Positions 29,048-57,458 are shown, counted from the first letter of the stretch. The stretch: 64,000 nucleotides of DNA from Desulfatiglans anilini DSM 4660 (GCF_000422285.1 NZ_AULM01000019.1:1-64000); one strand, 5' to 3'. Made by a program: numbers and translations. Notes: generated from the letters alone by a model not told the origin.

Positions 29048-29160
29048 GGGGTCGGACCAAGCTACCACATTGATTTTCCATCAAAATAGATTATTTGAGA
29101 ACCATATTGTGACCTTAGAACCGACTTTTCAGCCCCAAAAAGGACCGTCTAAGCTTTGCC
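29048..29160 (+). repeat. Dispersed 110-bp element, copy 1
   Basis: Begins GGGGTCGGACCAAGCTA and contains CCTTAGAACC, CCCCAAAAAGG and TCTAAG, the family pattern. Not at a gene end. Confidence 0.7.
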
Positions 29161-29230
29161 GTTCGCAAATGATACTCCGGGTCTGCCAGCATTATATGAA
29201 ATCATAATTTTTATGTAATTTGTAAATTAA

Positions 29231-29342
29231 GGGGTCGGACCAACATATCATGTTGATTTCACGTGAGAACAGCATGTTCGAGAGCCATATTTCGACCTTA
29301 AACCCAGCTTTTTAGCCCCAAAAAGAACTGTTTAAACTTTGG
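29231..29342 (+). repeat. Dispersed 110-bp element, copy 2
   Basis: Begins GGGGTCGGACCAACATA and contains CCTTAAACCC, TTTTTAGCCCCAAAAAG and TTTAAAC. It is in tandem orientation with copy 1. Confidence 0.7.
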
Positions 29343-29749
29343 GGGTCGTGGAGGATCCGTCCAACCCGATTCCATAGGGGGGACACTCCATATTTTTGTA
29401 AATCCAATCTTTTGATCCAAATTATTAAAATGCCCTGAGGATTCCAATCCCAGCGAAGTAATCTTTTTTGCTGGAGTGGGATTTTTCCTGTGCAAAAGGG
29501 TTTGGAGCGGGAGTCGTGTCTAGGATCCCAAATAAATCCCAGAAAAATCACTTGATAGACATCAAGCTAACCCACACATCAGCAATCTCGCAACTGAAAT
29601 CAGTTTCTTGTGCGCACTGTAAAATTTAGCTGGCCTTTTTTGAAATCAAAATAAGCGTTCTAAGCCAAAAAGAGAGCATCTATTTAATTTTCTTTTATAA
29701 CATTTTAAAGTATTTATCTTTTTAGAGCTCTTTAAAAAAAGGAGGACAT

Positions 29750-30388
29750 ATGAAAAAAATTATCTTAATGATCTTAATCCTGCCTCTGTGCTGTATTTCA
29801 TGTGCCGCTACAATTGGAGCGCACGGTACTCATGTGGACGTAGTTCCTCCGCTTCCTGTCACGGTTGTATTAGCTGGTCCATACTATTTCTCCGATGCAT
29901 ATTATCCTTATTACTATTGCTACTACGATAACTATTATTATTACTATTACAGCAACCGTTGGTATTATTCAAGATATAGACACTCAAAGCACACTTATTG
30001 TAAGCCGCTCCCTAGCCATCATTATCCACAAAATTTCAGTTATAAATCTCATCGCCAAGAGTATAATCATAAGAAATATAAAGATCACCACAATAATCAT
30101 AAAAAAGAACATAGAAATTATCACAGTGATGATCATAAAAATAAAAAGCGACAAGATCATGAAAAAAAATATGGCAATATTAATAAATGTATAAATCATC
30201 GTTACATTCGTAAAAATTCAGAACACAGACGCACAAATTATCAAGCAGATCACGGGGTGAAAAAAAGCCATGTCCAACAGGAAAGAAGCCGCGGATATAA
30301 TAAGAGATATAACAAACAAAATGACAACAAGTCCTTCAGCCCTCTAAAAATTAAAGATAGCACCCAGCAGAACAGCAGAAGGCGTTAA
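29750..30388 (+). CDS. Tyr/His/Lys-rich lipoprotein-like protein of unknown function
   Basis: 212 residues; AAGGAGGACAT directly precedes the ATG. The N-terminus MKKIILMILILPLCCISCAA looks like a lipoprotein signal with several candidate Cys. A Tyr-rich stretch follows (PYYFSDAYYPYYYCYYDNYYYY). The rest is extremely hydrophilic, with His, Lys, Asn and Arg dominating (HKKYKDHHNNHKKEHRNYHSDDHKN). It is strongly A+T-rich, unlike its neighbours, and is enclosed by outward copies of the dispersed repeat. No family recognised. The His density suggests metal or polyanion binding at the cell envelope, but this is inference. Confidence 0.65.
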   Translation: MKKIILMILILPLCCISCAATIGAHGTHVDVVPPLPVTVVLAGPYYFSDAYYPYYYCYYDNYYYYYYSNRWYYSRYRHSKHTYCKPLPSHHYPQNFSYKSHRQEYNHKKYKDHHNNHKKEHRNYHSDDHKNKKRQDHEKKYGNINKCINHRYIRKNSEHRRTNYQADHGVKKSHVQQERSRGYNKRYNKQNDNKSFSPLKIKDSTQQNSRRR

Positions 30389-30474
30389 AGCATTTCGGTA
30401 GCCTAAATTAATTTAAGAGCTTGATATTAATAGAAAATATCATCCATAACTCCGACAGGGGGAGTAAATAGCCT

Positions 30475-30583
30475 TCGATTAGGAGCCTATTTTCTCCCTC
30501 AAAATGGGCCTTTTAAGCTCCAAAATAGGCTTTGATATCGAATAATTCTATGTAATATTCATGTATTACCTTGGTCCGACCCC
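30475..30583 (-). repeat. Dispersed 110-bp element, copy 3 (inverted)
   Basis: TTGGTCCGACCCC at 30571-30583 is the inverted start; the body contains AGCTTAAAAGG and A/T-tract hairpins. With copies 1 and 2 it brackets the A+T-rich island. The left boundary is approximate. Confidence 0.6.
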
Positions 30584-30590
30584 TTAATGC

Positions 30591-30619
30591 TTGACAAAGT
30601 GGGGGGACATCGGTTATTA
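30591..30619 (+). promoter_or_regulatory. Sigma-70-type promoter of the DtxR-family gene
   Basis: TTGACA (30591-30596), 17-base spacer, TTATTA (30614-30619), 44 bases before the start codon. The context ATGCTTGACAAA recurs at the feoAB promoter. Confidence 0.55.
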
Positions 30620-30662
30620 GGGGGGTAAACTTAAGTTATAAATCTCTAACAATGAGGGTATT

Positions 30663-31217
30663 ATGGGAAACGCCCGTACCAGAGAAAATTCCACAGAGAG
30701 GCCTTTGACATCCGTCATGGAAGATTATCTGGAGGCGATCTTCGATCTCAGCCAGGACAAGAGGATTATCCGGGTCAAGGATATCGCCAGACGGATGGAT
30801 GTCAAGATGCCCACTGTTACGAGCATGCTGAAGACGCTAAATGAGCGCTGCATGGTTCATTACGAGAAATATGAATATGTGGAACTGACCGAGGAGGGGG
30901 TCAGTGTCGGAAGAGAAATGCGGCGGCGGCACGAAATCCTGCGGGAGTTTTTGACCGAAATCCTCCGAGTCGACTTCGCCACAGCGGACGAAGACGCCTG
31001 CAAAATGGAGCACGCACTGAGCCCCGCCGCACTGGACAGCTTGACCGACTTCATCGAGTTTATCCGCACATGTCCGCGAACGGGAGAAAGCTGGCTGAAC
31101 TACTTCGAGGAATACCGCCTGCACGGGCGTCGACCTGAAAAATGTCAGTCACGCAGCACTTCCTTTTCTTGTGAATTCAAGCACCAGCTCGACTCCGAAG
31201 AGGGTGACCGGCAATGA
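30663..31217 (+). CDS. DtxR/MntR-family metal-dependent regulator
   Basis: 184 residues. The N-terminal winged helix (VMEDYLEAIFDLSQDKRIIRVKDIARRMDVKMPTVTSMLKTLNERCMVHYEKYEYVELTEEG) is followed by the metal-binding and dimerisation domain (RRHEILREFLTEILRVDFATADEDACKMEHALSPAALDSLTDFIEFIRTCP). The His, Glu and Cys/Met positions expected for a metal site are present. There is no C-terminal SH3-like domain. It lies upstream of feoA-feoB, and TCTAA-type palindromes occur before the next genes. It is likely an iron- or manganese-responsive repressor of this cluster. Confidence 0.88.
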   Translation: MGNARTRENSTERPLTSVMEDYLEAIFDLSQDKRIIRVKDIARRMDVKMPTVTSMLKTLNERCMVHYEKYEYVELTEEGVSVGREMRRRHEILREFLTEILRVDFATADEDACKMEHALSPAALDSLTDFIEFIRTCPRTGESWLNYFEEYRLHGRRPEKCQSRSTSFSCEFKHQLDSEEGDRQ

Positions 31218-31322
31218 GGCTGGGGTCGCGATTTGATGCCGCGCCGCAAATGAAGGACGTTTTTGGTTGTGGGCGGATTTGCGGTGGAAGGTCTCTTTGA
31301 GAATATTTTTTTGGAAATATTG

Positions 31323-31336
31323 TTAGGCCAGTCTAA
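31323..31336. promoter_or_regulatory. Possible metal-regulator operator 1
   Basis: TTAGGCCAGTCTAA, an imperfect palindrome with TTAG/CTAA ends like DtxR-family boxes, 26 bases before the start at 31363. It is followed by A+T-rich DNA with a second TCTAATATAA. Confidence 0.45.
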
Positions 31337-31362
31337 TATTATAAATAAAATCTAATATAATC

Positions 31363-31656
31363 ATGGGAAATAATCACAAGGATCTACTGGCCGCACTCAG
31401 CACAAGCGTCAGAGAACTGCAACAGGGCCTCGACCTGCACTGTTGCCTTATCACATCCCTGATGGAGGGAAGGCTCACCGAGCCGCATCTACAAACCCTC
31501 ATGGACCGGTGCCCCAAACGGGCGCGGGAGCGTCGGCTCGAGAAGGCCGTCCGGGAGGCGATCGACGTCCTGGATGAGAGCCGGAAGGCGTTCAAATCCA
31601 AGGCCCTTGAACGTCTGCGCAAACAGCTGACTGAGGCGCTGATCGACCCGGATTGA
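31363..31656 (+). CDS. Small hypothetical protein between the regulator and feoA
   Basis: 97 residues, predicted all-helical (LLAALSTSVRELQQGLDLHCCLITSLMEG...RERRLEKAVREAIDVLDESRKAF). No family recognised. There is no clear ribosome site, because the ATG follows TATAATC directly. It may be leaderless or start later. An operator-like palindrome lies just upstream, so it is probably regulated with the iron cluster. Confidence 0.6.
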   Translation: MGNNHKDLLAALSTSVRELQQGLDLHCCLITSLMEGRLTEPHLQTLMDRCPKRARERRLEKAVREAIDVLDESRKAFKSKALERLRKQLTEALIDPD

Positions 31657-31672
31657 CCGTTTAAAAAAATGC

Positions 31673-31700
31673 TTGACAAAAAGAAATAGATAAGTATTTT
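31673..31700 (+). promoter_or_regulatory. Sigma-70-type promoter of feoAB
   Basis: TTGACA (31673-31678), 16-base spacer, TATTTT (31695-31700). It gives a leader of roughly 160 bases before feoA. Confidence 0.6.
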
Positions 31701-31726
31701 AGAGCTTCATTTTTTAGTTTTACAGG

Positions 31727-31737
31727 TCTAATTTAGA
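31727..31737. promoter_or_regulatory. Possible metal-regulator operator 2
   Basis: TCTAA-T-TTAGA, a perfect palindrome just downstream of the feoAB promoter, sharing GTCTAAT with operator 1. A bound DtxR-type regulator here would block transcription. Confidence 0.45.
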
Positions 31738-31787
31738 AAGGGATGTCTTACGGCCTTCGGTCCAATTGCTTGGGCGCGGAGGAAGTG

Positions 31788-31834
31788 AAGGCGCCGCTCT
31801 GAACGCACCACGCGTATCGGGCAGCGCCTTTTTT
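31788..31834 (+). terminator. Intrinsic terminator in the feoA leader
   Basis: AAGGCGC pairs with GCGCCTT, followed by TTTT. The stem is extended inward with one mismatch. It lies between the feoAB promoter and the feoA start, so it would act as an attenuator or insulator. Confidence 0.55.
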
Positions 31835-31865
31835 GTTTTCAGAACCCTGCCAAGGAAGGCGCGAC

Positions 31866-32090
31866 ATGACACTGAATGAAATGAAGCCCGGGGGTGCATG
31901 CCGGATCAGGCGATTGCTGGCCGGAAACAAATTGGGACAGAGGCTTTTGGATATGGGGATTTATCCGGGGCTGCAGGTGCGTGTAATTCGCAACGCCCCT
32001 CTTGAAGACCCCATGGAACTCGAACTGGGCGGTTATTTCATCAGCCTCCGCCACGAAGAAGCCCGTTTCGTCGAAGTGGAACCGCGATGA
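31866..32090 (+). CDS. feoA: Ferrous iron transport protein A
   Basis: 74 residues; the ATG at 31866 is preceded by AAGGAAGG. It is an SH3-like FeoA fold: MTLNEMKPGGACRIRRLLAGNKLGQRLLDMGIYPGLQVRVIRNAPLEDPMELELGGYFISLRHEEARFVEV. FeoA is a small cytoplasmic partner of FeoB. The stop overlaps the feoB start by four bases (ATGA), which indicates translational coupling. Confidence 0.93.
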   Translation: MTLNEMKPGGACRIRRLLAGNKLGQRLLDMGIYPGLQVRVIRNAPLEDPMELELGGYFISLRHEEARFVEVEPR

Positions 32091-34561
32091 GGACCTCCAG
32101 AAAACGACTCGTAGCGCTCGTTGGGCAGCCCAATTGCGGTAAGTCCACACTCTTCAACGCGCTGACGGGCGCAAGCCAGCATGTCGCGAATTACCCCGGT
32201 GTCACCGTCGACAAGATGACCGGGTGGTACAAGCACGACGGCGCAAGAGTGAAAGTGGTGGACCTGCCCGGCACCTACAGCCTTACGTCCTTTTCTCCGG
32301 AGGAAAGGGTATCGCGGGATTTTATCCTGCATGAACGACCTTCGGCGGTGGTCAATGTGGCGGATGCCTCGAACCTGATACGCTGCCTCTATCTCACCTT
32401 CCAACTGATAGAGATGAATATCCCGCTCATCCTGAATCTGAACATGATGGACGTAGCAGAAAAGCGCGGGATCAAGATCGATGCCGGACGGCTTGCCGAC
32501 AGGCTCGGAATCCGTGTCTTTCCCACCTCGATGAAATCCGGCCGTGGAAAGGCCGCACTGGTCGAAGCGATAGCTGCCCTTTCCGGGGAGGTCGAACCCG
32601 CAAAAGGAGCGCGCATCGACTATGGGAAGATGGAGCCGTTTCTGCGCAAGATACGGGAAAAGCTCACATCCGAGACCACTCTCGGGGAAAACTACCCCGT
32701 TCGATGGCTGGCTATCAAACTGATGGAAGGGGACGCAGAAGCCCAGCGGCTGGTCGAGGAAAACCACCCTGCCCCGGCGGTCTTCTTGGAATCCGTGGCA
32801 CAGAACTGGGCGGTTTTTACCGCACACTCCGATGAAATGCCCGAGATTCATATCGCCAACCGCCGCTATCAGACAGCCGGCGAAATCGCGGCATCATCCA
32901 TCGAACCTCCGTCAATGGCCGCCCGCCCCCTGTCCGACACCATTGACCGGTTCGTGTGCCACAGGGTGCTGGGGCCGGCGATCCTCATCGGGGTTATCTG
33001 GCTCCTCTACTACCTTTCGATCGTCCAGGGATATCGTCTCACCGGGCTTACCTGGCCGCTTCTGGCAGGGTTGCGCGATCTGGTGGAGGGCGCCGCACCT
33101 GCGCCGGGTTTCATCGACATTCCCTTGATGCGGTCTTTCGCGCTCTGGTTCGTGGACAGCATCAATGCGCTTTTGAACTACATTCCCATATTTTTCATCC
33201 TTTTCAGCTGCATCGCCATCCTCGAGGACAGCGGATACATGCCGCGCATGGCCTTTATCATGGACCGGGTGTTCAACCGCTTCGGCCTGCATGGACAATC
33301 CACCCTGCCGATGGTCCTGGGGGGCATTTATGTTGGGGGCTGCGCCGTGCCGGGTGTCATGGCTTGCAAGGGGATTCCCGACGAACGTTCACGCCTGGCG
33401 ACCATCCTCGTCATTCCGCTCCTCAACTGCCTCGCCAAGGTGCCGCTTTACGTACTTCTGATCAACCTGTACTTCGCCGCCCACGCCGCCTGGGCCATGT
33501 TTTTCATCTCCACGATCAGCCTCCTGCTGGTGCTGCCCATTGCCAAAATATTGACCCTAACCGTCCTGAAGGACAAGGAAACGGCGCCGTTCGTCATGGA
33601 AATGCCGCCCTATCATCTGCCTACGCTGCGAGGCGTTCTGGGACCGGCGGTGGAGCGGGTATGGCTCTTTCTGCGCAAGATCAGCACCATCGTGGCAGCC
33701 GTCGCCGTGGTCCTTTTCGCGCTGCTGCAGTTTCCAGGGCTAAGCAGCGAAAGGACGGACCACTATCGCAACCAGAAAGAGGCTGCCCTGGAGTCCTTCT
33801 TCAAGGGGATCAGAGGCACCCCGTACGCCCAAGACCTACAAGACGAGGAGCGCATCATGGATCTCATCCTGTATGGGGATGCGTACAGAAATGCCCGGAT
33901 GAAGGCTTCCGGCCAGGGGGCGATGGAATCCCTCGCGGAGGAATTCAAGCGCCGTGATCCCCTGTATTTCCAAATTGTTCAGCCGGGAGGAGACAGGGAT
34001 GCCCGGCAGGTGAACCGGGCTTTCAAGGAGCTCCACCAAACGCGTAGAGAGCTCTTGCAGACGATGCGCAAGGAGCGGATCGACAACAGCCTTCTGGGAT
34101 GGCTCGGAAAGCGGCTGGAGCCCTTCACGCGCGCGGCCGGTTTCAACTGGCGTATCAATGTCGCGCTCCTCAGCGCACTTGCGGCCAAAGAAAGCAGCGT
34201 GGCCACCCTGGGGGCGCTGTACGAGCAAGAAGAGAGCGGTGAGACCCTCGAGCAGCGAATGGCAAGGGAGGAAGGCGAACTGACCTCGCTCCACGCCCTG
34301 GCATTGATGCTGTTCATGGTGCTCTATCCGCCGTGCCTTGCCGCCGGCATCGCGGTGAAGATCCAGGCGGGCGCCTTGAAGTGGATGCTCTTTTCGATGA
34401 TCTACCCGATGGCGCTCGGACTGGGGGTCGCGAGCCTGGTCTATTCAGGAGGAAAGACCTTGAGGCTTTCCGGCCTTGAAGCCATGTTCGCATTCTATGG
34501 GCTGGCCCTGGCTTTTACTGTCCTTATGGGCCTTTTCAAAAACAAAACACACTACGAATGA
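32087..34561 (+). CDS. feoB: Ferrous iron transport protein B
   Basis: 824 residues. The N-terminal G domain has P-loop GQPNCGKST, DLPGTYS and the base-recognition NMMD. The membrane core shows the two Feo GATE repeats (PMVLGGIYVGGCAVPGVMACKGIPDERSR...LVIPLLNCLAKVPLY; INVALLSALAAKESSVATLGALY). A long soluble insertion of about 150 residues (SSERTDHYRNQKEAALESFF...RKERIDNSL) sits in the C-terminal half, larger than in E. coli FeoB. It imports Fe(II) across the inner membrane. It is coupled to feoA; no feoC is seen. Confidence 0.95.
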   Translation: MRTSRKRLVALVGQPNCGKSTLFNALTGASQHVANYPGVTVDKMTGWYKHDGARVKVVDLPGTYSLTSFSPEERVSRDFILHERPSAVVNVADASNLIRCLYLTFQLIEMNIPLILNLNMMDVAEKRGIKIDAGRLADRLGIRVFPTSMKSGRGKAALVEAIAALSGEVEPAKGARIDYGKMEPFLRKIREKLTSETTLGENYPVRWLAIKLMEGDAEAQRLVEENHPAPAVFLESVAQNWAVFTAHSDEMPEIHIANRRYQTAGEIAASSIEPPSMAARPLSDTIDRFVCHRVLGPAILIGVIWLLYYLSIVQGYRLTGLTWPLLAGLRDLVEGAAPAPGFIDIPLMRSFALWFVDSINALLNYIPIFFILFSCIAILEDSGYMPRMAFIMDRVFNRFGLHGQSTLPMVLGGIYVGGCAVPGVMACKGIPDERSRLATILVIPLLNCLAKVPLYVLLINLYFAAHAAWAMFFISTISLLLVLPIAKILTLTVLKDKETAPFVMEMPPYHLPTLRGVLGPAVERVWLFLRKISTIVAAVAVVLFALLQFPGLSSERTDHYRNQKEAALESFFKGIRGTPYAQDLQDEERIMDLILYGDAYRNARMKASGQGAMESLAEEFKRRDPLYFQIVQPGGDRDARQVNRAFKELHQTRRELLQTMRKERIDNSLLGWLGKRLEPFTRAAGFNWRINVALLSALAAKESSVATLGALYEQEESGETLEQRMAREEGELTSLHALALMLFMVLYPPCLAAGIAVKIQAGALKWMLFSMIYPMALGLGVASLVYSGGKTLRLSGLEAMFAFYGLALAFTVLMGLFKNKTHYE

Positions 34562-34585
34562 GGGAATGAAAGGAGGACCGTTTGC

Positions 34586-34903: not shown

Positions 34904-35125
34904 TGCATGCGCCGAGGAAGGGTTGTGCCCCCGCCGGCCCCGGTCCCGGTGGCAAGGCGACGAGTCGAAACCGCCCCGGGAGAGTCGACAAGTGGACATC
35001 ATCGTCAGAGCGCCGACGGATCAAAGGCGCGTTTGGCGCGCCCATGAACTGAAAGCATCGAAAATCACACGGAAACGGGACAGTCTTTTAAAGGGAAAAA
35101 CCTGTACGAGGAAGGAGCTAATCAA

Positions 35126-35965: not shown

Positions 35966-36066
35966 CAATTCTTTGTTACCTTTGACCACGACAATAACCG
36001 ACACTGAATCGGGCAACCCTTTGAATCGTCGAATTGTCCTATAACTGGATCAACAGGAGAGAGGAA

Positions 36067-37305
36067 TTGAAAAGAATTGTGAATACGATCGTTTTCTCAC
36101 TTATGCTGTTGTTTTGCGCCATGAGTGCGGGGCCGTCATCAGCGGCCGATGTATCCACCGCTCAACTGATGGAGGAGTTGGAAGCCATGCAAAGGCGGGT
36201 CCAACAACTCGAAGAACAGCTGCAACGAACCGCAGCGGCGGATGAAGTTCAGAAGGACAGCGGGCGGGCGGCCTCCGTCAAAGAGGAAGGTCTGCCGGAA
36301 AGAATCCGAAAAATCGAGGAACAGCTGAAAGAAAAAACGCTTCCAGACACCTTGACAAAAAGGGTGACCCTGAGCGGATTGATCGAGGCCGAAGCCGGCT
36401 ATGAGAAGATTCGTTATGCCGACCCCGCCCAGGCCGATGAGGATTCGAGTGACATCATCCTGTCGACGGTGGAATTGGGCGTCGATGTCGACATCGCCAA
36501 ACATGTCAGCGGGCACGTCCTGTTTCTCTGGGAAGAAGACGACACGGAACCGGTTGATATGGACGAGGGTTTCATCACTCTCGATGGTGAAGATGTCGTG
36601 CCTTTATATCTCACGGCAGGGAAAATGTACGTCCCCTTCGGCACATATGGAACCTTCTTCATCAGCGACCCTTTGACACTCGAGATCGGGGAGACAAGGG
36701 AAAGCGCCGTCAGGGCCGGGTTCTACAACGAGCTGTTGGATGTATCCGCGGCTGTCTTCAATGGCGATGTGGGCAAGATAGGGGATGACGATTATATTGA
36801 CTCATTTGTCGGAAGCATCGCCTTCTCCCTTCCCGAAGAACTGGTCCCCGACCTTGGGTTGACTGCCGGCGCCGCCTACCTCAGCAACATCGCCGACAGC
36901 GACGGCCTGGAGGGCGAAACGAGCGGTGAAATCCAGGATGAAATCGGCGGGCTCGGAGCCTTCCTGAGCCTGGCTTATAGAGAAAGGGCCTTCCTGCAAT
37001 GCGAATACGTGGGCGCGTTGGACCATTTTGAGGCGGGGGAGCTGAGCTTCGACGAGGGCCGTGCGGCCAAACCGCGGGCGTGGAACCTCGAATTGGCGCT
37101 CGTCCCGGTCGCCGACCTAACCGTGGCCGTCAAGTATGAAGCCAGCCGGGATCTGGGGGCGTTTCAGCCCGAAGAACAATACGGCGCGGCCGTCACCTAC
37201 GGCCTATTCGCCAACACCGCGATCTCTTTCGAATACCTTCGCGGCGAACACGAAAACGGTGACCGAAGGGATCTCCTCACCACTCAGCTCGCCATCGAAT
37301 TCTAG
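36067..37305 (+). CDS. LbtU-like outer-membrane porin
   Basis: 412 residues from TTG at 36067, chosen because AGGAGAGAGGAA precedes it and a clean signal peptide follows (MKRIVNTIVFSLMLLFCAMSAGPSSAA). A coiled-coil segment comes next (LMEELEAMQRRVQQLEEQL; RIRKIEEQLKEK). A beta-barrel then begins RVTLSGLIEAEAGYEK and ends in Phe (TTQLAIEF), as usual for outer-membrane proteins. The layout matches the LbtU siderophore-porin family of Legionella. It probably lets iron complexes through the outer membrane. The stop codon TAG is followed immediately by a dispersed-repeat copy. Confidence 0.8.
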   Translation: MKRIVNTIVFSLMLLFCAMSAGPSSAADVSTAQLMEELEAMQRRVQQLEEQLQRTAAADEVQKDSGRAASVKEEGLPERIRKIEEQLKEKTLPDTLTKRVTLSGLIEAEAGYEKIRYADPAQADEDSSDIILSTVELGVDVDIAKHVSGHVLFLWEEDDTEPVDMDEGFITLDGEDVVPLYLTAGKMYVPFGTYGTFFISDPLTLEIGETRESAVRAGFYNELLDVSAAVFNGDVGKIGDDDYIDSFVGSIAFSLPEELVPDLGLTAGAAYLSNIADSDGLEGETSGEIQDEIGGLGAFLSLAYRERAFLQCEYVGALDHFEAGELSFDEGRAAKPRAWNLELALVPVADLTVAVKYEASRDLGAFQPEEQYGAAVTYGLFANTAISFEYLRGEHENGDRRDLLTTQLAIEF

Positions 37306-37415
37306 GGGGTCGGACCAAGATAACATTCTGAAATTACATTTTAATAACATCAAAAAATGCCCTTTTCCAGCCTTAGAACCATCATTTCAAGCCTAAAAAG
37401 GGGCATCAAGGTTTT
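37306..37415 (+). repeat. Dispersed 110-bp element, copy 4
   Basis: Starts directly after the porin stop codon with GGGGTCGGACCAAGATAAC and contains CCTTAGAACC and CCTAAAAAGGGGC. Sense orientation relative to the porin gene. Confidence 0.75.
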
Positions 37416-37736: not shown

Positions 37737-37848
37737 CAAAGATCTTAAACCCGGCTTTTTGCGTGGAAAATGATCCACCTAAGGTCAAAAAATGGCATTC
37801 GTATGAATAAATATAATTTCATATCAGTGGCTTGGCTTGGTCCGACCC
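37737..37848 (-). repeat. Dispersed 110-bp element, copy 5 (overlaps a gene end)
   Basis: TTGGTCCGACCC at 37837-37848 is the inverted start. It lies inside the amine-oxidase gene, whose stop is at 37819. The body contains CCTAAGGTCAAAAAATGG and CTTAAAC. Confidence 0.65.
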
Positions 37849-38934
37849 TTCCATGCTGCATACTTCATAGACAGCACGTTCGGCGGCTGCCAGGGCCCCT
37901 TCGAGGTATCCCCCGTGTTCGTCGGCGGTTTCGGTGCCGGCAAAATGAACGGTGCCGTTCCAAATAGAGGTCCGACCGGCCGGGGGATGATAAAGAGGAT
38001 GCTCGACCATCGGAGGCTGATCGTACGGCGTGGCAGTAAATCGCTCGCGGGCCCAGTCCCGGTAGAAAAAGGCGGTCGGGTTCAGAGCTTCTTTCCCATA
38101 GAGGGATGCGAGTTGGCAAAGAATCTCCTCCAGCAGCAGGTCCGGCCTGCTGCGCTGCACAGCCGGGATGCCGACAAACCCGGTCAGACCGTAGGGGCCG
38201 CCGGCATCGTTCGATCCGTCGTGAATCTCCCCCAAAGGCCCACGCTCGCTGAATCCTTCCCCGGAAAGACCGGCTGTGCGCCAGAAAGGTGCATCATAGA
38301 GTGCACAGAATTTCGCCTGCCCGGCCATCCACGTACCGATCCTCAGCATCGCCTGGGCAAGATCATGCGGAAGTTCCGGTTCGAAAAGCATGGTGGCAGC
38401 TGCGAGACGCGGCGGGAGAGCGAGGATCAACTGGCGGGCCCTGAACTGCGCCCACGGTTCCCGATCCAGTTCGCCGACGCTCACCAGGGCACCCTCTTCT
38501 GTTTTCTCAATTCGACAAACCGGATTATTGATGTGAATAGCACGTTCAGGAATCCGCTCACAGAGCCTCCGCACCAAAGCCATCATCCCGCCTGCCAATC
38601 GAAAGGAAGGCGGCTCCATGACGTATCCTCTGACAGTTTGAACCGAACCGTTGAAGCGCTCGAAGCGGCCACAGCCGCTGTCAAACTGCGGATAGCCCTC
38701 GAGGCCTAACGCCTGGATGAGATGAGCCATTTTCGGATGGATCGCCGGCCAATACCATGAGGGACCCAAATCACAGAAAAAACCTTGATATTCGGGGCTG
38801 AGAATCCGACCGCCAAGTCTTTCTCGGGCTTCCAGGATCAAAAAAGAGCCTTTCGTTCCCGCGAGGAGACTCGCGGCATAAACACCGCTCAACCCCCCAC
38901 CGACAATGATCGTATCGAACGTTTCCGCGTGCAT
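37819..38934 (-). CDS. FAD-dependent amine oxidase-type oxidoreductase
   Basis: 371 residues. The N-terminal FAD site is DTIIVGGGLSGVYAASLLAGTKGSFLILEARERLGGRI (GxGxxG, then E, then the RxGGR motif). The C-terminal FAD contact is FAGTETADEHGGYLEGALAAAERA. This is the flavin monoamine oxidase family, slightly short. The substrate is unknown and there is no strong ribosome site. The last nine residues (GSDQAKPLI) are encoded by a dispersed-repeat copy, so the native end may have been replaced. Confidence 0.85.
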   Translation of the reverse strand: MHAETFDTIIVGGGLSGVYAASLLAGTKGSFLILEARERLGGRILSPEYQGFFCDLGPSWYWPAIHPKMAHLIQALGLEGYPQFDSGCGRFERFNGSVQTVRGYVMEPPSFRLAGGMMALVRRLCERIPERAIHINNPVCRIEKTEEGALVSVGELDREPWAQFRARQLILALPPRLAAATMLFEPELPHDLAQAMLRIGTWMAGQAKFCALYDAPFWRTAGLSGEGFSERGPLGEIHDGSNDAGGPYGLTGFVGIPAVQRSRPDLLLEEILCQLASLYGKEALNPTAFFYRDWARERFTATPYDQPPMVEHPLYHPPAGRTSIWNGTVHFAGTETADEHGGYLEGALAAAERAVYEVCSMEGSDQAKPLI

Positions 38935-39780: not shown

Positions 39781-39876
39781 TCAAAAAGGCCTTAAAATGG
39801 CCGCTCTAAGCCTCAAATTGAGCCTTTTTTCGACACATATTCGTTTATTATCAAAATGTTATCTTGGTCCGACCCC
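39781..39876 (-). repeat. Dispersed 110-bp element, copy 6
   Basis: TTGGTCCGACCCC at 39864-39876 begins 22 bases beyond the stop of the DUF2284 gene, in the sense of that gene. The body contains AAGCCTCAA-ATTGAGCCTT and ends next to the transglutaminase gene start. Confidence 0.7.
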
Positions 39877-40447: not shown

Positions 40448-40669
40448 GGCTTTGCCCTCCTTCTCCTGAAAAAAATCGTCCGTTCTGGACCAAACTCACC
40501 ACAAGCGACTCTAGCCCCTTATCCTGAAAATCGCAAGTCCGCACCTGCTCGGCCCGGCGGAATTAGTTCTTTAGCGCCCAGGCATTTTCTGGTAGAAGTC
40601 ACTGAGATAAGGCTTCACTCCAATCTCTTGTCCGGTCGCCCAAGCCATTGGCCGAGAAAGGATCTGCAA

Positions 40670-41551
40670 ATGGATGCATACGATATCGCATTCGTCGGAC
40701 ACGTCTCATACGATGAAATCGTGCCGTTCGAAGGTCAAACAACCTTTGCCACCGGAGGTTCGGCTTTTTTCAGTGCCATGGCGGCGGCGCCGGCCGGAAA
40801 ACGCATCGCCCTGATCACGAAAATGCACGAGACCGATCAACATCTTCTCGATCCCGTAAGAGCGGCTGGAATCGACATTATCCGGATCCCTGCGCCAGTA
40901 ACGACGGCGATGCGGGTGGACCACCCCACGCAAAACGTCGATGAAAGGGAGATGCTCGAACCCCGGACGGCCGGCTTCATCACGGTCGATGAAATGCCCG
41001 ACATCAAAGCGGAACAAATGCATTTCGCCGGGTTGACGGACCAGGACTTCCGCTTCGAACTGATGCAGTACGCTCGCGAGCGCGGCTGCCGCGTTTCCGT
41101 CGACATGCAGAGTTTCGTTCGACAGGTCGATCCGGTGACAAGGAGGATTTCATTCAGGGATGTACCCCGAAAGACGGACATCCTGAAACTCGCCGAATGG
41201 GTCAAGGCGGATATGGTTGAAGCGGAACTCCTGACTGGGACGGCCGACCCGGAAGAGGCCGCCGGCCGTTTCGAGGATTGGGGATGCGGCGAAACCATGA
41301 TTACCCGGTCCGACGGTGTCCTGGTGCGCCACCAGGGCAGAAACTATTTCGAAAGGTTTTCCAACCGCAATTCGTCCGGCCGCACCGGACGCGGAGACAC
41401 TGTCTTCGGAGCCTACCTTTCCCGCCGACTGGAACACGACGTCCCCGAATCCCTCAAGTACGCTGCAGCCCTGGCATCCATCAAAATGGAACGCCCCGGC
41501 CCCTTCACCGGCACTCTTCAAGAAGTGATGAAGCGGGTCGGACCAAGGTAA
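40670..41551 (+). CDS. PfkB-family carbohydrate kinase-like protein
   Basis: 293 residues from the ATG at 40670 (AAAGGA upstream; the earlier in-frame start at 40628 has none). N-terminal DIAFVGHVSYDEIVP and TGGSAFFSAMAAAPAGKRIALITKM match the PfkB ribokinase fold. The C-terminal GRTGRGDTVFGAYLSRRLEHDVPESLKYAAALASIKMERPGPF holds the anion hole and catalytic Asp (GxGD). The substrate could be a sugar or nucleoside and is not predictable. The last four residues (VGPR) and the stop are encoded by a dispersed-repeat copy. Confidence 0.82.
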   Translation: MDAYDIAFVGHVSYDEIVPFEGQTTFATGGSAFFSAMAAAPAGKRIALITKMHETDQHLLDPVRAAGIDIIRIPAPVTTAMRVDHPTQNVDEREMLEPRTAGFITVDEMPDIKAEQMHFAGLTDQDFRFELMQYARERGCRVSVDMQSFVRQVDPVTRRISFRDVPRKTDILKLAEWVKADMVEAELLTGTADPEEAAGRFEDWGCGETMITRSDGVLVRHQGRNYFERFSNRNSSGRTGRGDTVFGAYLSRRLEHDVPESLKYAAALASIKMERPGPFTGTLQEVMKRVGPR

Positions 41552-41645
41552 CCATCTGAATGGAAAAGAAAAACGACATAAATTTGACCATTTTACACCC
41601 TTAAAAGCAGCATTTGGATCAGAAAAAACGCGTTCTAAGCACCGG
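41535..41645 (+). repeat. Dispersed 110-bp element, copy 7 (overlaps a gene end)
   Basis: GGGTCGGACCAAGGTAACC begins inside the PfkB gene and supplies its last codons, GTC GGA CCA AGG TAA. The body contains CCCTTAAAAGC and TTCTAAGC. Confidence 0.7.
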
Positions 41646-41865
41646 GTAGTCTTTAATGAGAACTCCCCGGTCAAGCGAAAAATTCAAAATCCTTCGTTCT
41701 GGGAGGCAAGACCGTACGTTACGAAATGAAGGCGCAAATCAAGCCATGGGACGACTTTCACATGAACAACCGTCTCGTGCAGGCAAGATAGCCTGTAAGA
41801 CTTCCCCATCAGCGGCGGGACCTTTTATGGCAGGTGGAGGTAAAACCCGAGAGCTTTGATCTGCT
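41646..41865. other. Intergenic region between repeat copies 7 and 8
   Basis: About 220 bases between convergent genes; no supported ORF. Confidence 0.4.
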
Positions 41866-41969
41866 CAAAGTAGCTTTTTTGCCCCCAAAAAGAACCCTCT
41901 AAGACAGAAAAATGCGCGTTTTTAGGGTGATAACATCGTAATTTCAAAGATATAGCTTGGTCCGACCCC
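41866..41969 (-). repeat. Dispersed 110-bp element, copy 8
   Basis: TTGGTCCGACCCC at 41957-41969 begins two bases beyond the stop of the receiver-only regulator, in its sense. The body contains CCTAAAAACGCGCATTTTT and CTTAGAGGG when read on the minus strand. Confidence 0.72.
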
Positions 41970-41971: not shown

Positions 41972-42457
41972 TTATATCCAGTATTTGAATTTTTCCCAGA
42001 ATTCTTTGTCGTTGCGCCGCCATTCAGGGCCGAATCTCTTGTCGTAATAATCTCCCCACTTTTCCAGCCAGCCGGACCAGAAATGTCTGCCCTCTTTCTT
42101 GGCCTGGAGTACTTCCTCCAGATAGGAGGCGATTTCCGAGATCTTTTCTTTCGGCAGATAGGAAGCGGCACCCCCTTTGAAAGATTTCTTGATATCCTCG
42201 GGACTGAGCGCGTGAGCGGTCAGCATCACCGCGATAATCTTTTTACCATTAGCGATCTTCAACAGTTCGTAACCGTCGACACCCATGATATCCAGCACAA
42301 CGATATCGAAGCGTTCGTTCTCCAACAGATCTTTCGCCGACTGAAACGAACCCGCCTTCGCTATGGTGCACATGGTCAGAAGCTCTTCCAACGCCTCCAA
42401 AACATCCGGCTCATCGTCGACAATGAGAATTCGTTTTCCTGGAAGCAACTTCTCCAT
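41972..42457 (-). CDS. Receiver-only response regulator
   Basis: 161 residues; GGAGG precedes the ATG. One receiver domain: ILIVDDEPDVLEALEELL, phospho-acceptor Asp in VVLDIMGVDGYELL, Thr in MLTAHA and Lys in YLPKEK. The C-terminal ~45 residues (FWSGWLEKWGDYYDKRFGPEWRRNDKEFWEKFKYW) are Trp-rich and hold no known output domain. It is the last gene of the leftward catabolic block, after the acyl-CoA ligase. Partner kinase not present. Confidence 0.88.
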   Translation of the reverse strand: MEKLLPGKRILIVDDEPDVLEALEELLTMCTIAKAGSFQSAKDLLENERFDIVVLDIMGVDGYELLKIANGKKIIAVMLTAHALSPEDIKKSFKGGAASYLPKEKISEIASYLEEVLQAKKEGRHFWSGWLEKWGDYYDKRFGPEWRRNDKEFWEKFKYWI

Positions 42458-51413: not shown

Positions 51414-51415
51414 GT

Positions 51416-51895: not shown

Positions 51896-52141
51896 CGTTC
51901 GCTCTCCCTTTGTCGGTTTGGTTTTCATATGGAAACGGCGTGGCGGATGAACCCCGATTCAAACCTGCAGTCTTAGGCTGCGAGGGTGCCGGAGCCCGAC
52001 AACCGCCTTCGGGCAAGGGACAGGCTCCACTGGCCGCGGCGAAAAATTCTTTCTGGCCCCCTCTGGAAAGGCAGGAAGGCACGACGTCCGATTCAAAGAA
52101 TTCGGTTTTTCTATATGCGGCGAAGAAGTCAATACGCTGCT

Positions 52142-53026
52142 TCATCCCTGACTCGAGGACACCTGTCTTAGGGCCCGCTTGACCAGGACCTCCACCATCA
52201 AGCGGCGGTACTCAGCCGATGCACGGTGGTCGTCGATCGGTCTCGATTCATCGGCGGCGATTTTCGCCGCCTCCGCAATCACCTCATCACTCACGGGCCG
52301 GCCCTCGAGGAACGTCTCACATCGGCCGGCCCGGATCGGTGCAGGAGCGACAGCGCCCAGTCCCACGCGGACTTTCGAGAACGCTGCATCGCGCGTCTCC
52401 GCCAAAGCGGCTACGCCTACAACGGCTAGATCCATGCGGCTGCGGGGTGAGAGCTTGATGTAGACGCCTCGCCCTTCAGCCGGGGGGACATGAATCTCCT
52501 TGACGAGTTCATCCGGTTCGAGAACTGTCTTACCCGGACCGGTAAAAAATCGATTCAGTTCGACGACCCGTTCACCACGCGGGCCGGCGCACAGGACCCG
52601 CGCCTCCAGGCAAAGCAGCGCCGGAGCAGAGTCAGCGGAAGGAACGGCATTGCAGAGGTTCCCGACGATGGTTCCGCGGTTGCGGATCTGATGGGAAGCG
52701 ATGCTGAATGCGGCTTGGTGTAGCATAGGAAAACGACTTTTCACTGCTTCGGACTCTGCAACGGCATTGATCGAGGCAAGGGCGCCGATCCGCAAACCTC
52801 CGTCCTTTTCAGCGGTGACATAGTCGAGTCCCATCACGCCCTTCAGATCGATCAGGGTTTGAGGCACCGGGTCGGTTCTCCGTTTGATTTTCGGTAACAC
52901 GTCCGTGCCGCCTGCATAGACACGGAACGTTCCGACAGGATTCCCCTGCATAAAAGCCAATGCTTCTTCGATTCCCTCGGGTTTGAGGTAGTCGAATGGC
53001 GGCAGCCGTCTGAAAAAAAGTGTCAT
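52142..53026 (-). CDS. Molybdenum hydroxylase FAD-binding subunit
   Basis: 294 residues. CoxM/XdhB-type FAD subunit: FRVYAGGTDVLPKIKRR (FAD loop) and IASHQIRNRGTIVGNLCNAVPSADSAPALLCLEARV (second FAD contact). The extra four-Cys loop of 4-hydroxybenzoyl-CoA reductase beta subunit is not seen, which argues for an ordinary dehydrogenase electron path. It is the first enzyme gene of the trimer, with the order FAD, [2Fe-2S], Mo. Confidence 0.92.
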   Translation of the reverse strand: MTLFFRRLPPFDYLKPEGIEEALAFMQGNPVGTFRVYAGGTDVLPKIKRRTDPVPQTLIDLKGVMGLDYVTAEKDGGLRIGALASINAVAESEAVKSRFPMLHQAAFSIASHQIRNRGTIVGNLCNAVPSADSAPALLCLEARVLCAGPRGERVVELNRFFTGPGKTVLEPDELVKEIHVPPAEGRGVYIKLSPRSRMDLAVVGVAALAETRDAAFSKVRVGLGAVAPAPIRAGRCETFLEGRPVSDEVIAEAAKIAADESRPIDDHRASAEYRRLMVEVLVKRALRQVSSSQG

Positions 53027-53123
53027 AATCCTGCTCCTCCATTATCAATGTGAAATGATTCAAATTTCCGTAGTCTGCTCCAGAGATATAGAAAGCAATC
53101 CCGGAACATTTCTCTACCCTGGT

Positions 53124-53405
53124 TCAGCCTCCGCCAAGCGGCGTCAAACAGATATCGAGCCAATCACCATCCTCGATGACCGATCGCAGTCCCTTCGGAT
53201 AGAAAGCGATGTCCTTTCCACGGAGCGTCAGTTCGATGTCGGGTCTGAGTTTCTCCCCTTCGGCATCGATCAGAATAAACCCGGTCTCTCTTTCAACGCG
53301 GTGCAGGAGATCAGCCACGGTATCCGCCGCATCCGCAATCTCCAGATCCCCGAACCCAGCCTCCCGGCGAAGAAAATTGGTTGAAAGTTTTATCTTTTTA
53401 GGCAT
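53124..53405 (-). CDS. MoaD/ThiS-like ubiquitin-fold sulfur carrier
   Basis: 93 residues; GAGGAAC upstream. A beta-grasp protein with the essential Gly-Gly end: LRRE...DTVADLLHRVERETG...ELTLRGKDIAFYPKGLRSVIEDGDWLDICLTPLGGG. Such proteins donate sulfur to molybdopterin or other cofactors, or serve in tungsten/molybdenum enzyme operons. Lying just upstream of a molybdenum hydroxylase it probably supports cofactor maturation for it. A role in protein tagging is less likely. Confidence 0.85.
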   Translation of the reverse strand: MPKKIKLSTNFLRREAGFGDLEIADAADTVADLLHRVERETGFILIDAEGEKLRPDIELTLRGKDIAFYPKGLRSVIEDGDWLDICLTPLGGG

Positions 53406-53590
53406 ATCGATCGTTCCTCTGGGCCTGCATTTTTCTGGAGGTCTCAGACAACATGTTACAAGAGGAATGCGACCGGCCGCCCGGTCGGTCCACGGCCAAA
53501 AAATAATGTGGTTGTATTTTTCCGTTTAAATCGGACCACATGAGAAATTTTCTATTCGCCTTCAAAAGCCCTTTCACATTTAGAAATGAT

Positions 53591-54154
53591 CTATTTCGAC
53601 AACCCCCGCAGAAAGATTTCAACATAGGTATCGGCTAGTTCACGTGCTGATTCCTGCCGGGAGTAATCGAACCAGTAAAAGATCCAACTACACATTCCCA
53701 GGGCGCCGAAGGTGGCAAAAGTCATGTTCACATCTTTGGCTTTTCCCGCGGCCTTCATTTCGAGAAGGGCATTTCGGATCAAATCGAAGCCCCTTCTCCA
53801 AACGCGGTCGATCCTGGCGCGGTGCGTCCTTGCAAGATTTTGGGTTTCATGAACAACCACGCGTACGGAGGGGTCTTGAGTCATAGCATGCAGGATATAC
53901 TCCCGCATGAAAAACGCTACTCGTTCCGTCGGGTCCGCGATTTTCTCCGCCTTTTCCAGGACAGGAATGAACGTCCGCTCCATCTGCCTTTCATGAATCT
54001 GGAAGAGGAGTTCTTCCTTGCTGCTGAAATAATGGTACAGCCCGGCCTTGCTCAAACCCAATGCCTTGGCGACACGCGACAAAGGGGTCTGTTCATAGCC
54101 ATCCCTCAGAAACAGCTCAAGCGCCTTGTCACAGATTCTGTCCCGTTTATCCAA
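53591..54154 (-). CDS. TetR/AcrR-family regulator
   Basis: 187 residues from TTG at 54154, preceded by AGGATG. The N-terminal HTH is RDRICDKALELFLRDGYEQTPLSRVAKALGLSKAGLYHYFSSKEELLFQIHERQ. The C-terminal ligand domain resembles FadR/AcrR-type regulators of acyl-CoA metabolism. It heads the leftward catabolic block and probably represses it until an acyl-CoA or aromatic inducer binds. Confidence 0.9.
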   Translation of the reverse strand: MDKRDRICDKALELFLRDGYEQTPLSRVAKALGLSKAGLYHYFSSKEELLFQIHERQMERTFIPVLEKAEKIADPTERVAFFMREYILHAMTQDPSVRVVVHETQNLARTHRARIDRVWRRGFDLIRNALLEMKAAGKAKDVNMTFATFGALGMCSWIFYWFDYSRQESARELADTYVEIFLRGLSK

Positions 54155-54356
54155 TTCAACATCCTGTCACTTGTTCTATCAGGTAGCCCCGAGAAGCCCT
54201 TTTAACGCCGTCCCAGGTCTAATTGCACCCTCATCGTCACACGTCAGGCGGACAAGCCCCAAGAAAGCGTCCATCATCTCTCGTCAAATTACCTACCGGC
54301 CGCACGGTCGATATCATCCCTTTTATCTCTTCCGGTGTCAAGCAAAAAACACCCAA
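54155..54356. other. Intergenic region upstream of the TetR gene
   Basis: About 200 bases left of repeat copy 9; presumably the TetR promoter region. No ORF or operator palindrome is convincing. Confidence 0.35.
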
Positions 54357-54470
54357 GGGGTCGGACCAGGCGAACACGCTAATTACAATACAAAAAGAAT
54401 GATTTTTGGGTCCTTTTACCTGCTTAAATGCCCCATTTTCATTCTAAAAAGTCTATTTTAAGCGTTGGGC
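54357..54470 (+). repeat. Dispersed 110-bp element, copy 9
   Basis: Begins GGGGTCGGACCAGG; contains CTGCTTAAATGCCCC, TTCTAAAAAG and TTTTAAGCG. Not at a gene end; convergent with copy 10. Confidence 0.65.
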
Positions 54471-54603
54471 TATAGGGCATCACACTTCCGCTCCAAGAAG
54501 GATAAAATTTTGGGTTCATCCGATTAATGCGTACTTTGCCTCGTGCAGGGCCATGATCTTGAGCTTGAAAAACTCCATCTCCATGAATCCGTATGTCTGT
54601 TTC

Positions 54604-54711
54604 TGAAATGTTATAATTTGTTATCAATATGCAAAGATGCGCATAAATCAATAGCAGATTTTAATCTGATATATATAAATGGCCAATTTTTAAATAATTT
54701 ATAACATTTCA
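54604..54711. repeat. A+T-rich segment with 13-bp terminal inverted repeats
   Basis: TGAAATGTTATAA at 54604-54616 and TTATAACATTTCA at 54699-54711 are perfect inverted repeats around an A+T-rich core with smaller palindromes (AGATTTTAATCT). The size and structure suggest a small non-autonomous element or a cruciform site. It lies between repeat copies 9 and 10. No ORF. Confidence 0.5.
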
Positions 54712-54787
54712 ATCAATTTTCACCTTATTATAAGCAGCGTGGAATTCTATCTATGGCATGACGAAGTCTGTCAGGGATGGAACCTTC

Positions 54788-54897
54788 AGACTGTTAAATC
54801 AGCTTTTTGGCCCCTAAAAACTAGCATCTAACACAGAAAACGATTTTTTTTAGCGCTATTAAATTGTAATTTCAAACACATAGTTTGGTCCGACCCC
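54788..54897 (-). repeat. Dispersed 110-bp element, copy 10 (overlaps a gene end)
   Basis: TTGGTCCGACCCC at 54885-54897 lies inside the MBL gene and supplies its last codons and TGA. Minus-strand body: CGCTAAAAAAAATCG, GTTAGATGC, TTTTTAGGGGCC. Confidence 0.72.
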
Positions 54898-56209
54898 CAT
54901 CGAGCCCATCGAGCAGTTCGCGAAGGGCGCGCTGGGGGCCGGGTTCGCCGTGCACCAGTTTCACGGCGCCTGGTTGGACGGCTTTTACCCATTCGAGCAA
55001 TTCCTGCTGATCTGCGTGGCCGGAGTACCCGCCGAGCTGATGGACGGCAGCCAGCACGGGAACGGGCTTGCCATCCAGCACAACCTCGCGCTTGCCCCCT
55101 TCCAGGGTCTGGAGGATGACTCTGCCAGGGGTTCCCGCGGCCTGATACCCGACAAAAAGGACATCGGTCGCGGGGTTGGGCAGTTGAGCCTTGAGATGGT
55201 CGATGATGCGGCCGCCCGTGCACATGCCGCTGCCGGCGATTACAATGGCCGGCCCCTTGAACTCAAGCAGCCTTTGATGCTCTTCATAGGTCTCCACCCC
55301 GTAGAGTCGATCGAAGCTGAGGGGATGATCACCCTGTTTTAGGCGGCCCTGGGCCTCATCGCTCCAATACTCCGAAAGCTCGGCATGGATTCGGGTGATC
55401 TTGAGGCCGAGCGGGGTATCGATGCATACCGGAACACGGCTGCCTCTTTCAGAAAAGATGCCTGCAGGATCCGAAAACAGGCGGTCCATTTCATAGATCA
55501 GTTCCTGGGTACGCCCCAATGCGAAGGCGGGAATGAGGACTTTGCCGTTGTCGGACAAGGCCCGCTGGAGAATATTCTGCAATTGCTGGAGGCGGTTGGT
55601 GCGATCCTCGTGGCGGCGGTCGCCGTAAGTCGATTCGAGCACCAGCAGATCACAGGGCGCCGGTATATCCGGATCAGGCAGGATGGGCGTGCCGCGCGCG
55701 CCGAGATCCCCTGAAAAAACGATGCTTTCACCACCTGGCAGGTCGAAACGGATCCAGCACGAGCCAAGGATGTGTCCGGCACGCCCAAGAGTAAAACGGA
55801 TGCCCTTGCGTAAATCGAAGGTCTCCTGGTACTCAAACCCCCAGCAAAGCTCATCCAGTTCCTCGAGCAGATGCTCCATCTGCCGGCGTGAGAGATGGGT
55901 GAAGCTCAAGGCGTCTTCCAGCATTGGCACCAACAATGCCTTGGTGGCATGGGTGCAGAGGATTTCCCCCCGGAAACCTCGCTGGATCAGCCCAAGCACC
56001 CGCCCGATGTGATCGATATGGGCGTGCGTAAGAAATAAAAATGGAATATCGGCTGGATGCACAGGCCATTGATCCATAGGTACGACCGTATCAGTCCCTT
56101 GTGTCGATCCACAGTCGATGAGGATGGCGATTCCGCTGGCCTGTAGCAGATGGCAAGATCCGGTGACCGTCTTTTCGCCGCCAAGATGGGTGATTCGTGC
56201 ATTTTGCAT
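54872..56209 (-). CDS. Beta-CASP metallo-beta-lactamase-fold nuclease-like protein
   Basis: 445 residues. MBL motifs: LIDCGSTQG, FLFLTHAHIDHIGRV (HxHxDH), GHILGSCWI and FSGDLGARGTPIL. The beta-CASP region has STYGDRRHEDRTNRLQQL and AIVIAGSGMCTGGRIIDHLK. The RNA-specificity end is VHQLGGYSGHADQQELLEWV...KLVHGEPGPQRALRELL. This is the CPSF73/YSH1-like bacterial group, probably an RNA-processing nuclease. The C-terminal GGRTKLCV is encoded by a dispersed repeat, just after the conserved part. Confidence 0.9.
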   Translation of the reverse strand: MQNARITHLGGEKTVTGSCHLLQASGIAILIDCGSTQGTDTVVPMDQWPVHPADIPFLFLTHAHIDHIGRVLGLIQRGFRGEILCTHATKALLVPMLEDALSFTHLSRRQMEHLLEELDELCWGFEYQETFDLRKGIRFTLGRAGHILGSCWIRFDLPGGESIVFSGDLGARGTPILPDPDIPAPCDLLVLESTYGDRRHEDRTNRLQQLQNILQRALSDNGKVLIPAFALGRTQELIYEMDRLFSDPAGIFSERGSRVPVCIDTPLGLKITRIHAELSEYWSDEAQGRLKQGDHPLSFDRLYGVETYEEHQRLLEFKGPAIVIAGSGMCTGGRIIDHLKAQLPNPATDVLFVGYQAAGTPGRVILQTLEGGKREVVLDGKPVPVLAAVHQLGGYSGHADQQELLEWVKAVQPGAVKLVHGEPGPQRALRELLDGLDGGRTKLCV

Positions 56210-56381
56210 CGATCTTTTTTTATCTCCATTTATTGAACAATCAGTTAAAATGCACTGCAGCGATTGAAGAAAACCTTTCAGAAGGCGCCATCACCTCCAC
56301 CGGGGGACTCCGGGCGGGGTGACAAGTGGGTCGATTTCATTCAACTATGGATTGCCTGTCACCTGACTTGGAGGAAAATCC

Positions 56382-57308
56382 TTGAAAATCGCTCCTTCCG
56401 AAGCGCCCCGGCTTCCACTTCGATCCGCCGGAAAACTCCCTCCCGACTCCTGGAAATCAAGTGGGACACCGATTGCGATCCTTTTCGTACTCCTATGGAG
56501 CACCGGTTTTATCGGCGCTAAATTCGGACTGCCCTATGCCGAACCTTTTACCTTCCTCCTGATAAGATTCTGGCTGGTGGCCGCCATTTTATTGGTGCTA
56601 TCCCTCGTCACCCATTCCACCTGGCCTCGAAGCCCCCGCGAAATCATTCATCTCGTCGTAACCGGCCTCCTCATTCATGCCGTTTTCTTGAGCGGCGTCT
56701 TTTCATGCATCTACAGCGGCGTCCCAGCCGGCATCACTGCTCTCATTGTAGGAATGCAGCCTGTGCTGACCGCCATCGCAGCCGGACCCCTGCTGGGCGA
56801 AACGGTGCGCCGCCGCCAATGGCTGGGGCTGGTGCTCGGAATGATCGGGGTAGCCCTGGTCGTACAAAACAAGCTGCTTCTCGGCCCTGAATACGTCAAG
56901 GGCTTCGTCTGGAGCTGCGCTGCGCTCCTGGGGATCACCGCCGGGACCCTTTATCAGAAAAAATTCTGCAGCATGACCGATCTTCGAACCGGCACCCTGG
57001 TTCAATACACCGCAGCCGGCATTGCACTGGCGGTGGCAGCTCCCTTCTCCGAATCCATGGCGGTCGCCTGGACCGGAGAATTCCTATTTGCGCTGCTTTG
57101 GCTCAGCCTCGTCCTTTCCGTTGGGGCGATCTTCCTCCTGTACACGCTTATCCGCAAGGGGAAGGCATCCTCGGTGGCAGGGCTTTTCTACCTGGTTCCA
57201 CCGTGCACCTCTCTGATCGCCTATTTTCTTTTCGGAGAAACCCTTACCCTCTATTCCATCTGCGGCATGATTATCGCCGTAGTCGGGGTGGCGCTTGTCA
57301 TCCGATGA
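56382..57308 (+). CDS. EamA/DMT-family transporter
   Basis: 308 residues from TTG at 56382, with GGAGG seven bases upstream. Two five-helix EamA repeats: FVLLWSTGFIGAKFGLPYAEPFTFLLIRFWLVAAILL and VGAIFLLYTLIRKGKASSVAGLFYLVPPCTSLIAYFLFGETLTLYSICGMIIAVVGVALVIR. It is an inner-membrane exporter of metabolites such as amino acids; the substrate is unknown. Confidence 0.9.
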   Translation: MKIAPSEAPRLPLRSAGKLPPDSWKSSGTPIAILFVLLWSTGFIGAKFGLPYAEPFTFLLIRFWLVAAILLVLSLVTHSTWPRSPREIIHLVVTGLLIHAVFLSGVFSCIYSGVPAGITALIVGMQPVLTAIAAGPLLGETVRRRQWLGLVLGMIGVALVVQNKLLLGPEYVKGFVWSCAALLGITAGTLYQKKFCSMTDLRTGTLVQYTAAGIALAVAAPFSESMAVAWTGEFLFALLWLSLVLSVGAIFLLYTLIRKGKASSVAGLFYLVPPCTSLIAYFLFGETLTLYSICGMIIAVVGVALVIR

Positions 57309-57339
57309 CTAAGAATCACAAAAAAGGCGGGCGCCGATC

Positions 57340-57458
57340 GCTTTCCCCTGGTTTTAAAGCCTACAAAAGACCCTCAAAAACCCTGTTCTAAAGCCGGAAA
57401 AAGCCCTTTTTTGGAGGAAAGACACTTCGTTTTCAAATAGATAGCTTGGTCCGACCCC
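57340..57458 (-). repeat. Dispersed 110-bp element, copy 11
   Basis: TTGGTCCGACCCC at 57446-57458 starts one base beyond the TAA of the ABC ATPase gene, in its sense. Minus-strand body: CCAAAAAAGGGC, GGCTTTAGAACAGGG, GGCTTTAAAACC. Confidence 0.72.

Follow-up and report, generated by a model that had tools for sequence, protein, structure and literature searches.

What are the repeats of about 107 nt that recur across the middle of this window, a 64,000-nt stretch of the Desulfatiglans anilini DSM 4660 genome, and what brought them there? The first-pass annotation described eleven copies between 29 and 57.5 kb, and these are present where it placed them: exactly 11 sites match GGGGTCGGACCAA with at most two mismatches at 29048-57458, as compared to a mean of 3.35 in shuffled windows, which never reached 11. 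The eleven copies align nearly gap-free over ~107 nt. Their start had been called nearly invariant, and columns 2-12 (GGGTCGGACCA) are indeed identical in all aligned copies; the conserved blocks TAAc..TTGA, CTTA, TTTT, AAAA and TAAG follow, with TAAG as the end of the repeat. The TTTT and AAAA blocks correspond to the A/T tracts previously read as hairpins, but they form part of one interrupted palindrome of 40 nt in the distal portion, CTTA-n8-TTTT-n6-AAAA-n8-TAAG. A covariance model, as the annotation had proposed, was trained on 34 genome copies, the 11 window copies included. At E<=0.01 it gave 43 matches in the sister species (G001) and 41 in the window's genome (G000; 4.67 Mb, 107 contigs), a few of the latter being partial or same-place opposite-strand matches, and it added a 12th, degenerate window copy at 29618-29720(-). 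Confinement to the 29-57.5 kb range thus did not hold: the family is genome-wide, with about 40 copies in the window's genome, many more than the window's eleven lying on a few contigs.

Based on the evidence collected here, the repeats are very probably solo terminal inverted repeats (TIRs) of a compact element composed of GGGGTCGGACC as the start of a 107-nt end, a RAYT gene and an inverted 107-nt end, and this we consider the best explanation as a whole. The annotation had noted that no transposase is present, which is true of the window, and had suggested guardedly a REP/RAYT-like relation together with a search for a Y1 (RAYT) transposase. That search leads to another contig, C26, where the genome has one complete gene of a RAYT clade of Y1/HUH transposases (C26:846-1664, 272 aa), the last codons and stop of which lie inside an inverted repeat copy (C26:1568-1678). 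The encoded protein exceeds the cut-off of Pfam Y1_Tnp, scores 74.4 bits against the NCBIfam model of REP-associated transposases (NF047646, cut-off 80), and is in this respect a divergent relative of RAYTs; against NF033573, the IS200-type TnpA, it reaches 24 bits at a cut-off of 55. In an alignment of 41 proteins, the histidines of NH-I-H and Y125 are invariant, and the tyrosine motif has the consensus YIDLNM with a nearly invariant M. The predicted fold of a close relative (L084, pLDDT 84) is most similar to 4er8, the complex of TnpA-REP with a REP hairpin (Z 15), and compares with the IS608 and ISDra2 structures at a VIA-align Z of ~7-8. A separate profile search likewise matches 4er8 (E 0.0011). 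Judged by motifs and predicted fold, the product is a Y1 (HUH single-tyrosine) transposase for single-stranded DNA related to E. coli TnpA-REP.

Scanning of a genome collection with the RAYT alignment yielded 80 loci from Desulfobacterota, Gammaproteobacteria, Nitrospirota, Aminicenantes and others, and in most of these GGGGTCGG(A/G)CC is located ~100-145 nt upstream of the start codon and again, inverted, at or after the stop. Ends were extracted from these loci (66 left, 68 right; both in 57 loci), and the element was measurable in 56, with a length of 927-961 bp in 53 and 1008-1046 bp in 3, typically ~935 bp. In the measured elements GGGGTCGGACC is outermost, and no target-site duplication was found at them. 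The distal module CTTA-n8-TTTT-n6-AAAA-n8-TAAG is common to both ends, and nucleotides 12-14 of the two ends agree in 74% within an element compared to 41% between elements, the higher agreement within elements being expected if one protein reads both ends. Of 61 related genomes, 12 contain strong matches to the clade (120 bits or more); by hand count, exact 14-mer TIR starts are found in 7 of these 12 and in 8 of the 49 others. Because the same sequence constitutes the TIR of related RAYT loci in many phyla, sequence comparison identifies the window copies as solo TIRs of a TIR-flanked RAYT element ("TIRtron"), not canonical GTAG REPs. Three RAYT relatives stand in a row on contig G012:C721 (28076, 30010, 32458; loci L102 (NaphS2) and L062), which suggests tandem multiplication of whole elements.

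In the genus itself, the RAYT is intact in both species and under purifying selection (dN/dS 0.17), with a right end only; no left end is recognisable upstream in either species. The combination of purifying selection and missing left end makes the RAYT look domesticated, and in the window's lineage it looks like a resident, non-mobile gene alongside many solo ends. Some 4.9 kb beside its right end (L078:1690-6633, on C26) are missing at the orthologous junction of the sister species.

The annotation called the family new, which is right only in part: the core motif departs slightly from the published one, but RAYTs flanked by TIRs, with further TIR copies dispersed in the genome, have been known since 2013. 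According to Di Nocera et al. 2013 (PMC3733652), such TIRtrons (TIRYT) have GGGGWSAS motifs in some TIRs and form moderately abundant TIR families. Shared with them are a Y1 gene between long GGGG-starting TIRs that overlap the gene's 3' end, and dispersed families in some genomes, with dimers and clusters. Here, most of the 80 loci have the long repeat on either side of a Y1 gene in inverted orientation, the window's own genome has it at the right end only, and dispersed solo copies are there in two species (41 and 43 model matches). Compared to the 2013 account, the core here is GGGGTCGGACC (some relatives have GGGGACAG or GGGTCAG), not GGGGWSAS; the window copies read GGGGTCGG, with G as the seventh base in place of A in that motif, itself published for some TIRs only. 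The ends here also have a defined two-part architecture of ~107 nt with the distal CTTA...TAAG palindrome, and tandem duplications occur at their junction with flanking DNA, of which we found no published description in the sources accessible to us. Within the reach of those sources, the core motif, the defined 107-nt ends, the broad distribution and the junction duplications are what is new here.

GTAG REPs, REPINs and REPtrons of E. coli and Pseudomonas resemble the present family in being dispersed flanks of a Y1 transposase, in inverted pairs, in gene-end location and in tandem clusters that take in flanking DNA. They differ in that the repeat here starts with GGGGTCGGACC and has no GTAG, nor the GTAG/GTGG foot of a 20-40 nt palindrome, measures ~107 nt, amounts to only ~40 copies and carries a weak palindrome far from the conserved block. 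With IS200/IS605 (IS608, ISDra2) the elements have HUH Y1 chemistry and fold in common (Z ~7-8); distinct from that family, to which the NF033573 score of 24 against 55 bits likewise does not assign them, they have inverted-repeat ends in place of same-strand subterminal hairpins, a C-terminal extension, and Y-I-D-L-N-M in place of Y---Q. TnpAY1 subclasses 2.1 and 2.3 are similar in the long RAYT (268-272 aa), the C-terminal extension, NH-hydrophobic-H and W-E (PMC6006769). No TnpAY1 subclass is claimed, since the Y---NP signature of class 2 is absent (YIDLNM). Most published TIRYTs fall in subclass 2.1, and Quentin et al. 2018 reported no REP-like structures adjoining 2.1 or 2.3 genes (PMC6006769); here, by difference, there are 107-nt ends with dispersed copies, so that dispersed, structured RAYT ends are now extended to proteins resembling subclasses without earlier reports of them. 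How RAYTs help REP-like sequences to spread is not well understood. The present clade, whose ~935-bp elements are sharply delimited and which has dozens of solo ends and a sequence footprint at one precise border, supplies a defined substrate, a position at which to expect the nick, and a natural read-out.

The window copies are mainly singles, often in close contact with genes. Copies 1 (29048-29154(+), more right-end-like) and 2 (29231-29337(+)) form a tandem with a period of 183 bp at a place where the sister species has a single copy. The 12th, degenerate copy (29618-29720(-)) has lost the GGGG start that its sister-species counterpart (L075:3923) retains. Copy 3 (30477-30583(-)) has GCATTAA as outer flank, where the sister species shows GCATTAACACATTAA, an 8-bp duplication. 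Copy 4 (37306-37412(+)) abuts the stop codon of the ORF at 36034-37305(+); copies 8 (41863-41969(-)) and 11 (57352-57458(-)) immediately follow the ORFs at 41972-42457(-) and 57460-58272(-). Last codons and stop come from the copy itself in the case of copies 5 (37743-37849(-); ORF 37819-38934(-)), 7 (41534-41640(+), left-end-like; ORF 40628-41551(+)) and 10 (54791-54897(-); ORF 54872-56209(-)). Copy 6 (39784-39876(-)) has a shortened 3' part, and copy 9 (54357-54463(+)) is left-end-like; typing of solo copies as left or right by profile was often ambiguous. The inward inverted pairs 37306/37849, 41534/41969 and 54357/54897 were considered as internally deleted RAYT elements, and no RAYT remnant was found inside; insertion where convergent or neighbouring genes end accounts for them better. 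A link to tRNA genes was not found within the window.

Such proximity to genes raises the alternative that the copies act in 3'-untranslated RNA as terminators or mRNA stabilisers and are retained for gene expression, with the likeness to RAYT ends reflecting origin and not present role. In 14 of 25 G000 copies the GGGG end is no more than 30 nt away from a same-strand stop codon, which holds for 6% of intergenic positions drawn at random (genes were called with a simple hexamer script). The sister species is similar in this preference, and most copies compared are common to both species. Conservation of position alone would fit this reading; insertion tolerance at gene ends, or target preference, however, accounts equally for the position, and terminator-like sites show no excess around the five copies inspected. 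Rfam has no match for the repeat, and covariation among the genome's copies is absent (0.145 versus 0.137 shuffled). Readings as RNA element or terminator were rejected on these grounds, and a present 3'-untranslated function is unlikely. Of the annotation's suggestion of an element recognised by a protein or folded as RNA, the protein part fits the role as RAYT TIR and the RNA part is not supported. The arms of the distal palindrome pair better than reshuffled ones in RAYT left ends (z 2.5 ungapped, 4.0 gapped) and to some degree in right ends (z 2.8 and 1.4), with no such signal in the genome copies, and folding energies are only mildly below those of shuffles; a hairpin in single-stranded DNA is plausible from these sequences. 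Terminal inverted repeats and small non-coding pairs might also bring to mind MITEs of a DDE transposase, yet in most of the 80 loci the gene enclosed by the matching ends encodes a Y1/HUH transposase, target-site duplications are absent and no DDE transposase gene bounded by the same ends was seen, making this origin highly improbable. As solo TIRs, the window copies now appear to be mainly tolerated insertions at gene 3' ends, often giving the stop codon.

Most copies compared occupy orthologous positions in the sister species and are therefore old; recent movement of copies is rare. The two species differ by tandem duplications with periods of ~119-183 bp and by inverted pairs of 245 bp that are 80-90% alike, three of them in G001 (L168:2259-2503, 4349-4596 and 4613-4857) and one in G000 contig C50 (L176:68-315). 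At a few sites these pairs have multiplied. It is these pairs only that correspond to a REPIN, a mobile unit of two inverted repeats; the window copies, being mainly singles, are not filed as such. One pair is absent at the orthologous G000 site, where the flanks are unalignable; the comparison gave no precise empty site, and transposition of a single ~107-bp end is a candidate process only. In the window's assembly, contigs C38 and C50 have a terminus inside REPIN-like units, so copy number may be under-counted.

Unexpectedly, the border where the outer flank meets GGGG is a hotspot for tandem duplications. In 55 of 238 copies, the hexamer directly preceding this border is found again within the next 36 nt upstream; the corresponding counts are 5.0 for random positions, 5 for the 3' side and 5 for a point 200 bp upstream. 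Repeats scored through the border with at least 10 matched nucleotides occur in 39 of 228 copies (1.4 expected), and when the offset is varied the count is highest at 0 (37) and drops below ten within ~20 nt. At the ends of RAYT elements the numbers are 17/63 (left) and 11/63 (right), with 0.2-0.4 at random and 1 and 0 at the inner side. Comparison of 23 ortholog pairs between the two species showed 13 upstream indel events, 10 of them within the 10 nt adjoining GGGG and the other 3 in the 140 nt further upstream. Two window copies, those at 54897(-) and 30583(-), are cases in point: beside the former, 54898-54915(-) reads CTCGATGGG-CTCGATG next to GGGG, and the sister species has one unit only. 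The earlier unit always carries element nucleotides, the first 1-45, and the duplication hence came after insertion; pre-existing microsatellites as insertion targets are rejected for this reason. T is the commonest base right before the border, and TT, AT, TC and CT are over-represented.

These duplications look like a RAYT footprint of nicking followed by extension and rejoining. The RAYT would bind the end as single-stranded DNA through the GGGGTCGGACC block and the distal interrupted palindrome, nick at the GGGG border or a few nucleotides outside, and so move or amplify ends. For E. coli TnpA-REP, cleavage of REP substrates leaves a Tyr-5'-phosphate link and a free 3'-OH (PMC8266576). In an abortive cycle, the nick would be followed by polymerase extension through the flank and the element's first nucleotides and by rejoining to the held 5' end, leaving tandem duplications of the form (flank + element start)(flank + element). 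We put forward tentatively, at somewhat under an even chance, that the duplications are natural footprints of repeated nick-extend-rejoin by RAYT at resident ends, that the enzyme shows itself mainly through local duplication at the ends, in units ranging from 7 nt to an entire 107-nt end, and not through classical transposition, and that domesticated RAYTs are still active in this way in present-day genomes. The main rival is replication slippage of the ordinary kind, at a site that is structured or blocked by protein, without any RAYT nick. Tandem units with microhomology are a product of slippage as well, and the starts of the duplicated units show no clear sequence motif; the excess, however, is found at the outer GGGG border only and not at the inner side, beside the more hairpin-prone palindrome. 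Slippage is a serious possibility, if clearly a less than even one. Mentions of junction duplications were not found in a non-exhaustive search of the literature, and the repeat motif as plain text returned unrelated papers only. An extreme form of junction duplication occurs in the flanks at L121 and L112, RAYT elements with numerous truncated GGGGTCGG starts arrayed in series in the outer flank.

Lastly, the window holds at 22999-23239 a second dispersed repeat of ~225 bp, with three matching sites in the sister species (L071, L076, L077; 74-79% identity) and related pieces in L079 and L080. It may be another TIR-type family, because the L076 copy has a GGGGTGGGACTGAG start. Read by eye, the ORF at 29750-30388 encodes a Tyr/His/Lys-rich low-complexity protein, probably secreted, and is followed at 30663-31217 by a DtxR/MntR-like regulator gene.
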